Below are positions 9,601 through 51,906 of a stretch of 64,000 nucleotides of DNA, one piece after another. Origin of the DNA: Crambe crambe (taxonomy: Eukaryota > Porifera > Demospongiae > Poecilosclerida > Crambeidae). Location of the stretch: the NCBI GenBank assembly GCA_963924555.1, contig OZ004594.1, positions 992,001 through 1,056,000 on the forward strand. Direction: 5' to 3'. Below the pieces are notes generated by a model. It was not told where the DNA came from. It ran no database searches and saw only the letters and a list, made by a program, of their open reading frames with translations. The translations under genes and the position numbers were made by a program. Position 1 is the first letter of the stretch, and each line of letters begins with the position of its first letter.

Positions 9601-11614
9601 TCTCTCTATCACAATTTTAATTGATAAGACAGTTAACTATGTTTGATGTCTGATTCCTGCACAAGGGATATACAGTAAGTCCACTCTGGTCTGTGAGTGA
9701 CTTGTTGCTGCATTTGGTTACTAGGAGTCAGCTCACCAGGTTCAGTAGGAGAGTTGGTGGGTCCTTCAGCTGGAAGGACAGGCTCAGAGGGAGGTTCAGG
9801 GGGTTCAGGAGGTCTGGGGGGTCCAGGAGAAGAAGCTAATGAAGAGGGAAGAAGGACTTTGTGAATATACACTATTTACTTCATATATCCACTACAAACA
9901 ACAGAAAGTCCCTTTATATTCTATAAAATTCCTTTAAAGAAAGTAATAAAATCAATCATCTAGATAGCACAAGTCTTAGAGAATGATATCACTTATACAG
10001 AGAGAAGAGAGAATTTTTCTAAGCAGAATGGCATTGAAATGAAGACTATAGCACTTTCCATTCAAAAGTTATGGCCTTTCAAACTTTAATTATTTTCACC
10101 TACTTTTAATTAACCACTAATTAATTTCTACAACTACTAATTACATGCGCTACATATACTACACGTACTTATTTTAGCTTGGGGGTATTATTTACATTAC
10201 ACCATGTACTGCTACATCATCTAATTAGTGCCAAGTAGTTATACATCTTGATACTTACAATTCAGTTGCCTGAGGGCATTTTCTCTCTCCTTTATTTCTT
10301 CTTCATACTTATGGATGTATTCTTTATCCTCCTGGATGTATCCCTCATACTTCTGCACATCCTCCTCCAGCTCCTTCCTCCTCTCCACAGACAGGGAGGG
10401 CTGGTCCAACTCCTCCTTGCATCTAGCAATCCTCTGCACACATGGAACACACACTAGGTATGGACTGGGCCACATGCCACGCCCTCATCACACCACTGCT
10501 ACACTCATCACTCACCTGTTCACAGAGCTCTATCATCCTCTGACAGGTTGCCTTCCTCTGTGAGGAGTGAGAGAGAGAAGGTGAGACAACCATACAACCA
10601 ACACACAAAGACAGCCATCATGCACCACAAAAAAAAATCACCACACGCACAGCATGTGAGCTACGGCCTCCAAACTTGGAGAACGTGTAGAGTGAAGTAT
10701 GCTCCAGAAGGTCATGGGGGTCATGAGTCGCCAGGCCCCGCCCATTTCCCTCGGCAGACCCGCATGGGGGTATTATGGTCTGTCGAAAATTGAGCAGGGG
10801 TCTAGCATGCAAGGCATTTGAGCTGCAGACTCCAAACATGGAGAATCTTCGTTATATGTTATGCTCAATAGTGCCATGGGGTACACGAGTCTCAAGACCC
10901 CACCCACTTCCCCCGGCAGAGGTGCACATGGATTATGCTGAGTCAGCATTTGGGTCATAAAATTGAACAGGGGGTCTGGCCTTCCTGTGGAAATTCCAGA
11001 TGAGGAGCACCCTCAAAACAGTGGGGCAAATAATACTGGAGGTAACTGCTTTAAGGTCGAGTAGTCCAGCATTCCAACAAGCAACTCCTCCCTGCAAACG
11101 AGCACCCCTCAATCTTAACAGGCTGTTGCTATGTATTATGTGCCTCCTGCTATGGGCCTAAGGTGCTTGCAGTGACTGGAGGGTCTTGCTGGAGGCACTG
11201 GACCAACACAAGCAACTACTTCCACAAACAACTTACCTCCAATAAATCCTTTATCTCTTCCTCATGTTCCTTTATCTGTGAGGAAACAAACCAGTCACAG
11301 CAACTATTCTAGCACACTCAAGTAGCTAACTACACAATGGCATAACTCTACTCAAACCTAAAGAATATTCTACACCTCAAATACGCAGCTAGCCTAGGCC
11401 TAGATAGTGTCTGGACTAAAATCAGCAGCTGCTAGATAATGACACGCCAGCTGCCAGTCTTTCCGCCTAGCTAGGCGGCCCTTTTGATTATACGGATTTG
11501 ATAGAGCTGTCTACACATTAATTTTAAATAAGCTTAGGACATGTACAGGAGCATATGCTATCACAAAAAAATATGGGCACAATCTGTTACCTTTAGAAGT
11601 CTTTCCTGGTCCAT
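6622..11614 (-). CDS. Roc-COR-death-domain protein, array copy 1
   Basis: Minus-strand exons: 11591-11614 (start, MDQERLLK), 11237-11275, 10516-10557, 10259-10433, Pro-rich 9674-9835, two small exons near 9482-9515 and 9375-9422, the 2-kb GTPase exon (about 7017-9046) and the death-domain exon (about 6685-6948). The last exon closes at a TGA at 6622. Splice phases agree throughout. The GTPase exon has a P-loop GAAGAGKSS, a switch-II-like DSGGQ and a GTHRDKE motif in the G4 position, followed by a COR-like region. The death domain starts around MADHFEVTELL. Known families with this layout (DAPK-like ROCO proteins) signal in cell death; the role here is inference. No transmembrane segment or signal peptide is seen. 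The GTPase exon differs from copies 2-5 by several percent. A MITE (9160-9355) sits in the intron 5' of the GTPase exon. Confidence 0.85.
9160..9355. mobile_element. MITE, CAGGGTTTA ends, 5-bp target duplication ACATG
   Basis: The 196-bp insert is present only in copy 1; the matching site in copies 2-5 reads straight through. The ends are CAGGGTTTA and its complement TAAACCCTG, flanked by ACATG on both sides. The interior is rich in G and C runs and has no coding capacity. It resembles the element at 57852-58186. Confidence 0.8.
10259..11614 (-). other. Hypervariable N-terminal helix exons, copy 1
   Basis: Exon 1 MDQERLLK; exon 2 IKEHEEEIKDLLE; exon 3 RKATCQRMIELCEQ (variable residues R1 T4 C5 R7 M8 L11 C12). 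In exon 4 the variable residues are R1, R4, D25, K28, G31, Y32, E35, D36, Y39 and K42. All exons join in phase 0. Ile, Leu or Val recurs every seven residues through exons 2-4 (Lys once, at exon 3 residue 2), which sets the 'a' register. The variable residues fall at c, d, f and g. Confidence 0.85.
10655..10985. repeat. Imperfect 150-bp tandem duplication in intron 2 of the array genes
   Basis: Two diverged half-copies (about 10660-10800 and 10815-10975) share the pattern 'gagct..c...ctccaaac.tggagaa', then 'atgctc', 'cc.catttcc/cccacttcccc.cggcaga', and end near 'aattgagcagggg/aattgaacaggggg'. The pair lies between hypervariable exons 2 and 3 and is kept in every array copy (for example 19685-20000, 29570-29885, 38632-38945, 47775-48095, and decayed at 51130-51415). 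No function is assigned. Confidence 0.6.
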
Positions 11615-11848
11615 AGACGGCAGCAAATGCTTTGTGCTCTTGATTGTCTGTTTTGGAGGAGGAATCAACCTTGGGCGTGGCGCATAGGGCGCATATGCAT
11701 GGGCGCATAACGACTCAATACAAGCCCCACCCTTTTGGAATTTGGTGATTACTTAATGTCTTAATGTAATTGTCTTAAGTATTGGCATATGCCCATCCTC
11801 CTCTTACTAGATCTACCTGTGGCTAACCCTGTAGTTGCTTTACTTCAT

Positions 11849-49249: not shown

Positions 49250-51906
49250 ACTTTCTGCTGCACGAAAACAGCAGAAGTGGAATCAAAGTCAATGTTCGCG
49301 TTCTAGCGTTCTTGGATCGACCAATCAGCTTGATCACAGTCGTTCTGGCCACAGTATAGTCACTACTGGCCAAATCAAAACTTCTATGCTCTTTTGAGGC
49401 TCCATTATTCGATTTCTGCTGCACGAAAACAGCAGAAGAAGTGGAATCAATGTCAATGCTCGCGTTGATGGCGTCTGCAAGAATAGTTATAAGTTCCTCA
49501 GACTCCAACGACCTCCCAGACCTGATTACTTAGTGCTTCAGTCATGCCTAACCTCAGACAGGTGGTCATGACCCTCTTGGCTTTCTCGATGACTCCCGTA
49601 CTGATTCGGAAATGTGGAAGAATGATGTCAAAGAGGAGAGATGCGAAAGAGGACTTGCCAGCACCAGCTGCCCCCACAATCACCGCCTTAATAATACTCG
49701 TATCAACATGCCCCATCTCCATTGCATTGTCATGCTATGAAAAAATGATCAGGATATAAAAGCCTGGAAATCTGACATTGGCTTTGCACATGATAGGACT
49801 CTTTAGTCTCATGCCTACAAGGATTCCAGCACATGTATTCTACTCACCAACTTTATTCTTGTGGCTTCATCCAGAGGACTTGACGACGTTACTCCTGCAT
49901 GATTATGACAAATCACTTTGGGTTAAGGGGGTCAGATTTAAGGGGGAGTGAAGACATGGTTGGGTTCAAGGGGGAGTGGAGACATGGTCAGGTTTAAGGC
50001 ATGGTCGGAGTGGAATGTGTTTACTTCAAGTCATTGATTGTTTTATCTACCTTTGTCAGTTGATGACACCTCTTTATCTCCATCTATATCATGAAAAGAG
50101 AATACCATAACATAATATGAACCCTGAGAGGATGAGTGCAAGAATATGGGAAGCTACTTCTGGCTCATACCAATGTCTCTATATCACAATTTTAATTGAT
50201 AAGACACTTTAGACGGTTAACTAAGGACTAGCAGCTGTTTGATGTCTGATTCCTGCACAAGGGATACAGTAAGTCTACTCTGGTCTGTGACTGTGAGTGA
50301 CTTTTTGCTGCATTTGGTTACTAGGAGTCAGCTCACCAGATTCAGTTGGAGGGTTGGTGGGTCCTTTAGCTGGAAGGACAGGCTCAGAGGGAGGTCCAGG
50401 AGGTCTGGGGGCCGGGGGTCCAGGGGGAGAAGCTACAGAATAGGGAAGAAGGACTTTGTGAATATACACTATTTACTTCATATATCCACTACAAACAACA
50501 GAAAGTCACTTTATATTCCTTTAAAGAAAGTAATAAAATTAATCATCTAGATAGCACAAGCCTTAGAGAAAGCTGTCACTGAAGAGAGAGCAGAATGGTG
50601 TTTAAATGTACTTTCCATTCAAAAGTAATGGCCTTTCGAAGTTAAATTATTTTAATTTCTACAACTACTAATTACATGGGCTACATATACCACACACACT
50701 TATTTTAGCTTGGGGGTATTATTTACATTACACCATGTACTGCTTGTTACATTGATACTTACAATTCAGTTGCCTGAGGGCAATTTCTCTCTCCTTAATT
50801 TCTTCTTCTGCTGTAAGAATGGCTTCTTTATTCCACTGGATGCCTCCCTCATACTCCACCACCTTCTCCTCCAGTTCCTTCCTCCTCTCCACGGACAGGA
50901 AGGGTTGGTCCAACTCCTCCAGGCATCTAGCAGTCATGGAACACACACTAGGTATGGACTGGGCCACAGCCACGCCCTCATCACGCCACTGTTATACTCA
51001 TCACTCACCTGTTCCCTGGCCTTTATGTGAGCCTGATACACTTCCTTCAACTGTGAGGAGTGAGAGAGAAAGTGAGGTAACCATACAACCAAAGACAGCA
51101 TCACACACACAAAAATTAAAAATCACCACACGTGAGCTACGGCCTCCAAACTTGGAGAATAATTATGTAGAATGAAGTATGCTCCAGAAGGTCATGGGGA
51201 TCATGAGTCACCAGGCCCCACCCATTTCCCTTGGAAGATTTGCATATGGGTATTCGGTCTGTGAAAAATTGAGCAGGGTCTAGCATGCAAGGCATTTGGC
51301 TTGCAGACTCCAAACATGGAGAACCTTCATTACATGTAATAGTGCCATGGGGTACACGAAAGACCCCACCCATTTATGCTGAGTCAGCATTTGGGTCAAA
51401 ATTGAATGGCCTTCCTATGGAAATTCCAGATGAGGAGCACCCTCAAAACAATGGGGCTAAATAGGTAACTATTCTAAGGTCGAGCAGTCCAGCATTCCAA
51501 CTCCCTGCAAACGAGCACCCCTCAATCTTAACAGGCTGTTGCTAGCATGTACTATGTGCCTCCTACATGGGCCTAAGGTGCTTGCAGTGACTGGAGGGTC
51601 TTGCTGGAGGCACTGGACCAACACAGGCAGCTACTTTCACAAACAACTTACTTGCAATAATTTCTCTATCTTTTCCTCGTGTTCCTTTATCTGTGAGGAA
51701 ATAAACTGTATTCTAGCACACTCAAGTAGCTAACTACACAATGGCATAGCTCTATCAAGCCTAAAGAATATTCTACACCTCAAATACGCAGCTAGCCTAG
51801 GCCTAGATAGTGTCTGGACTAAAATCAGCAGCTGCTATAATGACACGCCGGGCTTTTAAATAAGCTTAGAATATGTAGTTACCTTTTGAAGCCTTTCCTG
51901 TTCCAT
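49250..51906 (-). pseudogene. Roc-COR-death-domain gene, array copy 6 (truncated, broken)
   Basis: Exons 1-3 (51883-51906 MEQERLQK; 51652-51690; 51009-51050), exon 4 (from 50763), the Pro-rich exon (about 50270-50440), small exons and the first ~160 codons of the GTPase exon are present. Breaks: (1) the GTPase exon has an extra base at about 49502 ('cctcagActcc'); (2) it is cut off near 49250, losing the switch II, COR and death domain; (3) the exon-4 acceptor 'GCAG' is deleted near 50935; (4) a short internal duplication of GTPase sequence lies at 49250-49330. It is the most diverged copy and probably the oldest, next to the unique flank. Exon 2 IKEHEEKIEKLLQ, exon 3 LKEVYQAHIKAREQ. Confidence 0.85.

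Follow-up and report, generated by a model that had tools for sequence, protein, structure and literature searches.

A hypervariable exon cassette shared between putative Roco-type GTPase gene families of the sponge Crambe crambe

Background

The closest described parallel to the genes discussed here is the HNWD (het-d/het-e) NLR family of Podospora anserina. In the part of PMC1805685 drawn on here, the recognition units of that family evolve in concert within and between loci, a few interaction-surface codons are under diversifying selection while the remainder of the unit is homogenised, and an NTPase switch adjoins the recognition part. All three traits have counterparts in the window analysed here, a 64,000-nucleotide stretch of Crambe crambe DNA (C17:992001-1056000 of G000, a 143-Mb assembly of 119 contigs), whose minus strand carries five near-identical tandem copies of a gene for a putative Roc-COR GTPase and a damaged sixth copy. 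Seven codons of a 42-nucleotide (nt) exon, exon 3, are hypervariable in these genes, and the exon is shared, with its intron context, by gene families on several contigs. Its units are homogenised between loci and group by species, if the other sequence groups are assigned to other species, and diversifying selection appears to act on few codons, whose surface position is read from a heptad pattern. The HNWD unit, however, is a WD40 repeat found in arrays (same part of PMC1805685), whereas the unit here is a 42-nt exon with its introns: there is one exon-3 match per gene copy, six in the window, and tandem exon-3 repeats inside the genes are absent. Unlike HNWD, the predicted product is a helical hairpin placed before a Roc-COR GTPase in an animal, and it is common to families with different C-terminal modules. 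Allorecognition is an established function of HNWD in that source, whereas a recognition role of the sponge genes is putative. On our best reading, an animal would here follow the evolutionary logic of the HNWD allorecognition genes of a fungus.

Several other systems share some of these traits. In the PRDM9 zinc-finger array, as presented in part of PMC3890296, nonsynonymous change is likewise focused on contact codons (-1, 3 and 6) and the rest is constrained or homogenised; PRDM9 is, however, a DNA-binding coding minisatellite, whereas the sponge unit occurs scattered in many genes on several contigs. The AP-GTPase (Roc)-COR conflict proteins, including DAPK, are built like the products of the sponge genes, with a Roc-COR switch, a recognition part at the N-terminus that evolves rapidly and a C-terminal module that varies, and the Amphimedon TRADD-N/Death expansions are similarly a large sponge family with Death-superfamily domains (PMC8195603, in part). 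The sections of PMC8195603 concerned deal with LRR sensors on bacterial AP-GTPases and with TRADD-N families, and within them there is no mention of a hypervariable helical cassette or of exchange between families. Bacterial diversity-generating retroelements (DGRs) that feed conflict systems provide targeted diversification of putative sensors tied to NTPase switches, which is comparable; according to part of PMC10907252 they use error-prone reverse transcription, whereas here no template was recognised and constant adenines hardly vary. Among sponges, individuals of Halichondria panicea express different receptor sets, and GTPases respond to lipopolysaccharide (LPS), in the portion of PMC8242945 concerned; that study deals with expression of Pfam-defined receptors, and the same portion does not mention the sponge cassette genes. 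A literature search at title and abstract level, which mostly did not cover subscription journals, found among the papers listed no description of this family or of a similar hypervariable sponge exon.

Results

Codon-focused variation in exons 2 to 4

An alignment of the gene copies shows near-identical intron blocks alternating with exons 2, 3 and 4, where replacements are dense; the variable codons cluster on one face of a predicted N-terminal helical hairpin. Exons 1 to 4 are predicted to encode the hairpin, which is read from breaks in the heptad pattern; no convincing family match was found for it. The exons in the window are as follows.

20598..20621, minus strand: copy 2, putative exon 1, MDQERLPK (ATG and splice donor aligned across sister copies)
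20262..20300, minus strand: copy 2, exon 2, 13 codons, IKEHEERIKWLLE
19541..19582, minus strand: copy 2, exon 3, 14 codons, YKAVNQGWIEDLEQ, hypervariable at codons 1, 4, 5, 7, 8, 11 and 12
19483..19662, minus strand: copy 2, conserved island of exon 3 and flanking intron, from family consensus identity (approximate ends)
19284..19458, minus strand: copy 2, exon 4, 175 nt, predicted second hairpin helix with hypervariable codons
11237..11275, minus strand: copy 1, exon 2
10516..10557, minus strand: copy 1, exon 3, RKATCQRMIELCEQ
10259..10433, minus strand: copy 1, exon 4
30145..30183, minus strand: copy 3, exon 2
29424..29465, minus strand: copy 3, exon 3, AKAWDQRDIENCEQ
29167..29341, minus strand: copy 3, exon 4
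39207..39245, minus strand: copy 4, exon 2
38488..38529, minus strand: copy 4, exon 3, RKAYDQDWIEAYEQ
38231..38405, minus strand: copy 4, exon 4
48356..48394, minus strand: copy 5, exon 2
47638..47679, minus strand: copy 5, exon 3, AKAGYQLGIEVCEQ
47381..47555, minus strand: copy 5, exon 4
51652..51690, minus strand: copy 6, exon 2
51009..51050, minus strand: copy 6, exon 3, LKEVYQAHIKAREQ (diverged and damaged copy)

The six exon-3 peptides are exactly those quoted in the original prediction, and its lists of variable positions (1, 4, 5, 7, 8, 11 and 12) and constant positions (2, 6, 9, 13 and 14) hold for the six window copies, with positions 3 and 10 variable through copy 6 only. The extent given there, 10259..51690, is too narrow, as the pattern reaches far outside it. 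Near-identity of the tandem genes applies to copies 1-5, copy 6 being diverged and damaged. A single variable face in the c/d/f/g register had also been proposed. Helical-wheel entropy is indeed one-sided in 16 C17 copies (P = 0.0007 for helix 1 and P = 0.0029 for helix 2), and the codons above 1 bit are distributed over the heptad as a 0/12, b 2/12, c 7/13, d 3/13, e 1/13, f 4/11 and g 7/11; the register is not strict, since one b and one e site in exon 2, and one b site in exon 4, are variable as well.

The GTPase exon lacks this diversification. Its 682-codon frames are protein-identical in copies 2-5, as had been claimed, with 7.0 synonymous and no nonsynonymous differences summed over six pairs (Nei-Gojobori proportions pN 0 and pS 0.0026). 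By the same method exon 3 gives pN 0.321 and pS 0.099 in copies 1-5 (pN 0.30-0.32 overall), with pS inflated by codon changes spanning several bases. The contrast with the flanking DNA is seen between copy 2 and L009, the sister copy immediately left of the window, where all seven variable codons differ at a flank divergence of 0.4%: 11 of 42 exon-3 bases differ as against 4 of 1000 flanking bases, a 65-fold excess for which chance is excluded (Fisher P = 1.4e-13). Copies 2 and 4 differ at 12/42 exon-3 and 5/998 flanking bases. Copies 1 and 3 are a less even pair, almost unchanged on the left side and increasingly divergent to the right of exon 4.

A set of 42 copies (six from the window, 16 chosen by GTPase and 20 by exon-3 similarity) gives a nucleotide diversity (pi) of 0.49 in the variable codons, 0.036 in the constant codons, 0.008 in the 60 bp upstream and 0.027 in the 70 bp downstream. 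The constant codons of exon 3 hold 16 nonsynonymous deviants and no synonymous one, counted in these similarity-found copies because the scan patterns described below fix some third bases. Equal divergence in adjacent introns had been named as the outcome that would count against codon-focused diversification; the introns are nearly free of variation, and assembly errors are an unlikely source of the variants. Diversification on one hairpin face is supported, with none in the GTPase exon and almost none in the adjacent introns, and the proposed likeness of this putative binding surface to NLR-type repeats is supported by analogy.

A cassette shared between gene families

Exon 3 and about 150-180 bp of its context are homogenised between families on different contigs. 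Consensus sequences of four families (15 copies from C17, four from C18, three each from C16 and C8; C18 members chosen via the GTPase, C16 and C8 members via exon-3 similarity) were compared without the variable codons. In all six family pairs the identity is 1.00 at -50 to +99 from the exon-3 start, 0.97-1.00 from -80 and 0.90-1.00 from -110. Outside this island it is 0.4-0.8 in exon 4 and patchy further upstream (0.07-1.0). The remainder of these genes is far less alike, with GTPase identities to C17 of about 60% for C18, 25% for C16 and 24% for C8. Genes on C17 and C18 consist of the cassette, the putative Roc-COR part and a Death-like exon; L024, alone among seven C18 loci, gave no exon-3 match. 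The one C16 gene read has a Roc-COR-like frame that shares 25% identity with C17 (COR-A E 0.0023, below cut-off), together with a further frame whose middle part resembles the Death-like exon by eye. In the one C8 gene read, Ig-like segments (I-set E 0.0074 and 0.0013) come after a frame with 24% identity to C17 (COR-A E 6.9e-8); these matches, too, are below cut-off.

Within the genome the families have the same intron sequence next to exon 3. In other sequence groups, which we infer to be separate species, these flanks are different but recognisable, and this combination indicates concerted evolution. Whole exon-3 haplotypes have also moved between divergent genes. Three pairs among 71 copies (see below) have identical exon 3. 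L061 and L062 on C8 are one such pair, although their exon 4 differs at 15 bases and alignment is poor beyond +900; L015 and L016 show no difference from -200 to +499; and L025 and L027 on C18, 0.8% apart overall, have an unchanged exon 3 and one change in an exon-4 variable codon. C16:719331 and C18:575194 share a rare AGG at codon 5 (2/71 copies) and five further codons, which has a chance probability of about 9e-5, and are separated by two base differences, one of them synonymous. A second C16-C18 pair also has two base differences, one in a variable codon; 0.15 such one-codon pairs are expected by chance. The identical cassettes at divergent loci and the rare-codon pair show that cassettes are transferred unchanged and can then be altered by single bases. 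The original prediction is partly supported overall; what it overlooked is the homogenisation of exon 3, as a cassette, between several gene families and contigs.

The genome-wide repertoire

Searches with the individual parts gave different distributions. The GTPase has at least 67 matches (65 of 516 first-look candidates scored), of which 17 on C17 and C8 are at least 86% identical, the C18 group lies near 60%, one on C17 is at 57% and the others are at 34-40%. Exon 3 with its introns has 91-95% matches on C16, C18, C8 and C15 (40/84 candidates scored). Exon 4 is matched at 68-72% identity on C18, C8 and C15, with none on C16 among 40 of 69 candidates scored; its variation falls at similar sites in four families.

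Four merged pattern scans identified 71 complete exon-3 copies on five contigs (30 on C18, 15 each on C17 and C8, 10 on C16 and one on C15), excluding a 3' pattern match at C15:1341873 that is not a cassette. The patterns require a fixed length, so that length-shifted copies cannot be counted; one was seen on C9 (L060, G000:C9:6726442); its exon 3 is shifted by 1 bp, its intron is gapped, and it is probably a pseudogene. There are 68 distinct combinations of the seven variable codons among the 71 copies, and no copy contains a stop codon in exon 3. With identical haplotypes entered once (68 of 71), the seven codons are in linkage equilibrium (variance of pairwise differences 0.923 vs 0.899 +/- 0.034, P = 0.23). 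Taken singly, one of 21 codon pairs is associated, codons 7 and 8 (z 3.0), the remainder having z between -1.8 and 2.0. Codon differences average 5.93 between and 5.77 within families (P = 0.006, 71 copies).

Third bases are strongly position-dependent, with C at codon 11 in 70/71 copies and T at codon 5 in 67/71. Of 60 arginine codons 56 are AGG, whereas in the GTPase exon the figure is 4 of 27, and three of the 497 variable codons end in A. The usual third base depends on the family at some sites: exon-4 codon 39 is NNA in 9/9 C16 copies and NNT in 8/10 C18 copies.

Public protein relatives

The exon-3 read-through frame matched 166 public proteins, of which 120 were listed and used. Six of these were unparsable; 31 have the intron type of this genome, 72 a different but alignable intron, and 11 form a third group. 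This comparison is at the protein level, on read-through frames clustered at 90% identity, so that counts of distinct sequences are partly an effect of clustering. Single scans of genome contigs and of viral contigs with the exon-3 frame gave pattern matches and no relative, which confines cross-species comparison to proteins. The group of 72 varies at the same seven positions and at position 14; it departs from equilibrium overall (P 0.008), with values of 0.048 and 0.72 in two subclasses. Among 120 listed relatives of the GTPase, the only one named to an organism is from another sponge, Ephydatia muelleri (27% identity).

Public exon-3 peptides with this intron type number 34 (two of 36 were unparsable): 17 match G000, 16 are absent from it, and P0151 is counted neither way. 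Among public contigs with at least two peptides, matching is all or none, complete in 906149 (5/5), 288093 (4/4), 885133 (3/3) and 721438 (2/2) and absent in 462687 (0/4), 313256 (0/4) and 77895 (0/2). The non-matching contigs may come from the other haplotype, another individual or a sister species. Some public exon-4 peptides are identical to a C17 copy, and others to none of the 17 C17 copies read. At exon-3 variable positions, P0149 and P0152 have two residues inserted in frame and two residues deleted, a hint of recombination within the exon.

Protein domains and other features of the window

The original prediction described a death-domain GTPase. Roc and COR are found at the family level, with Roc at E <=0.01 in 25 of 34 aligned relatives (best 1.7e-9) and COR-A in 12/34 (best 7e-10), and a profile of the 34 relatives aligns to LRRK2 at E 3.1e-6. 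The copies in the window that were scanned stay below cut-off (copy 2 Roc E 3.5e-5, 24.4 bits against a cut-off of 27, with no listed COR-A match), and the P-loop GAAGAGKSS is present. The family is classified as Roc-COR (Roco-type) GTPases. The death domain is weakly supported: Pfam Death is matched by 2/14 paralogous C-terminal exons (best E 0.071), AlphaFold2 gives a helical model (mean pLDDT 73.6), a PDB profile search with this exon gave no relevant match, and Pfam matches such as that to Glyco_hydro_67C were taken as chance. Neither NACHT nor NB-ARC is among the Pfam families listed for the scanned GTPase proteins, which sets them apart from NLRs.

7004..9046, minus strand: copy 1, GTPase reading frame, 680 codons (Roc E 4.4e-5 and COR-A E 0.0059, both below Pfam cut-off)
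16178..18226, minus strand: copy 2, GTPase reading frame, 682 codons (Roc match below cut-off, as above)
26067..28115, minus strand: copy 3, GTPase reading frame, protein as in copy 2
35134..37182, minus strand: copy 4, GTPase reading frame, protein as in copy 2
44805..46853, minus strand: copy 5, GTPase reading frame, protein as in copy 2
6686..6937, minus strand: copy 1, Death-like exon
15868..16119, minus strand: copy 2, C-terminal Death-like exon, 84 codons from Met (helical model; weak Pfam Death in paralogues)
25757..26008, minus strand: copy 3, Death-like exon
34824..35075, minus strand: copy 4, Death-like exon
44495..44746, minus strand: copy 5, Death-like exon

Not all copies are intact. 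Copy 6 (49282-51849) has a disrupted GTPase start region and an exon 4 without the usual acceptor. In copy 5 (46854-47181) the stretch that joins exon 4 to the GTPase exon is several hundred bases short, and a proline-rich segment found in other copies is part of what is missing. A Death-like exon fragment at 2138-2339 points to a further truncated copy at the left end of the window. In intron 2 of copy 2 (19669-19871) a 41-nt stretch occurs twice, 162 bp apart and 78% alike, and it is matched by C18 copies too, in a shifted register. A 25-bp minisatellite of 20.6 copies lies within a proline-rich open frame at 4944-5450. Other frames in the window presumably encode proteins resembling animal mLST8 and POLD2. 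No Rfam family was found in the window at gathering scores.

Discussion

The preferred explanation, held at a probability of roughly 0.6, is a diversified recognition surface on a Roco switch that arose by extreme diversifying selection together with ectopic gene conversion. Ordinary mutation would supply the variants and extreme diversifying selection would filter them; the absence of stop codons from all 71 copies points to such a filter. Ectopic conversion would homogenise the framework and spread exon-3 variants between loci, with the shared intron flanks serving as homology arms. The variable face would bind a variable target, whether microbial, self/non-self or a partner, binding would alter the GTPase switch, and the Death-like or Ig-like C-terminal module may relay the signal. 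We infer these roles in binding, signalling and immunity from the arrangement of the genes.

Several observations weigh against this explanation. A 65-fold excess (11/42 vs 4/1000 bases in one pair) is extraordinary, and the lack of synonymous deviants in the constant codons of 42 copies would be difficult to produce by short conversion tracts that spare their neighbours. A selection-only simulation keeps the third base too rarely at codons 1 and 11, where 0 and 2 of 200 runs reach the observed value, and too often at codons 4, 8 and 12 (194, 199 and 200 of 200 runs). The AGG bias (56/60 arginines) and the scarcity of third-base A (3/497) also count against it. Pairs of copies one and two codons apart number one and two, where 0.15 and 2.8 are expected under the null; near relatives are thus scarce, and the single one-codon pair could be chance. 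Finally, as 40 of 84 candidates were scored and the patterns demand some bases, flank identity is somewhat overstated.

Many of the same observations would suit a dedicated mechanism that randomises chosen codons, by mutagenic copying of a template in the manner of a DGR or by targeted hypermutation, with selection acting only as a filter. Saturated codons adjoin a near-invariant intron (pi 0.49 vs 0.008 and 0.027), they are in linkage equilibrium across 36 bp, the same cassette, set in a similar island in every pair of families, occurs across contigs, and copy 2 and L009 differ in seven of seven codons at 0.4% flank divergence. The third base is mostly locked by position and family (codons 5 and 11, and exon-4 codon 39), and constant codons of exon 3 without a synonymous deviant in 42 copies, the AGG bias and the scarce third-base A point the same way. 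As proof of a mutator, however, the third-base lock was rejected: the simulation reaches the observed level at five of seven codons but misfits in both directions, and the lock is relied upon neither way. DGR mutagenesis is adenine-biased, and a restriction of variation to template adenines was not found here, a comparison that is indirect as no template is known; the constant codons hold A, C, G and T that hardly vary, which misfits any simple mutagenesis of a single base type. Structured RNA in the cassette was considered and rejected, the one sequence folded being less stable than its shuffles (z +1.94). No single-copy master was recognised among the matches listed in the widest scan (contigs before C18), the odd matches C8:2983760 and C8:8723039 being set aside. 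At G000:C15:6584314-6589062 (L051, L058 and L059) there is a roughly 4.7-kb minisatellite of exon-3-like units (47 and 59 bp), which contain the splice donor GTGAGYGAT; on the opposite strand nearby is a frame that we take to be a SNRNP200-like helicase. The minisatellite is the only exon-3-like array among the matches listed (contigs before C18), and it is not likely to be a template donor because the parts read have no intron island and few codon types. Copying without mutation is also evident: three identical pairs represent cassettes copied unchanged, single-base differences separate the members of at least one exchanged pair, and L025 and L027 have no exon-3 change at 0.8% overall divergence. 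Selection with conversion is preferred over a mutator because cassettes move unchanged and then change by single bases, and a dedicated mechanism is regarded as doubtful. Equally doubtful is its fuller form, an animal germline system in which a cassette of roughly 200 bp would be copied among families located on several chromosomes while the seven contact codons are randomised anew, each haplotype having its own repertoire and the outputs being interchangeable.

The variable face might alternatively be a partner-matching code, for coiled-coil pairing or self allorecognition, that keeps paralogues from cross-pairing. A helical hairpin with a heptad pattern, many paralogues with open GTPase frames and exon-4 variation at similar sites in four families would fit such a code, but no partner is known, and the variable sites lie at c, d, f and g and largely not at a or e, so that the invariant face looks like the packing core; this makes the code improbable. 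That the intron identity is constraint on a splicing element, a microexon code beside which variable codons are merely tolerated, is suggested by the shortness of exons 2 and 3 (39 and 42 nt) and by exon-3 flanks recognisable in other sequence groups. Flanks that are the same between families in the genome yet differ between groups indicate concerted evolution instead, and tolerance fails on a pN of 0.3 beside zero synonymous change in constant codons, which renders this highly improbable. Near-identical tandem copies are prone to assembly error and collapse, but an artefact of this kind is scarcely credible given codon-wise, stop-free differences in 71 copies on five contigs, the fact that the second sequence group, of 72, varies at these seven positions as well, and the recurrence of the exon-3 peptides of copies 2 and 4 on public contig 906149, possibly the same assembly.

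Sponges fuse, reject grafts and host dense microbiota, and to our knowledge the molecular carriers of their recognition specificity are poorly known. If the preferred explanation of selection and conversion is true, an early-branching animal would hold a large inherited receptor repertoire diversified at single-codon resolution and built on a Roco switch, not an NLR, with a recognition exon traded between families that have different outputs. The sponge Roco genes would be testable candidates for the carriers of recognition specificity, and saturated codons within near-invariant introns make directed germline mutation in animals a measurable question.

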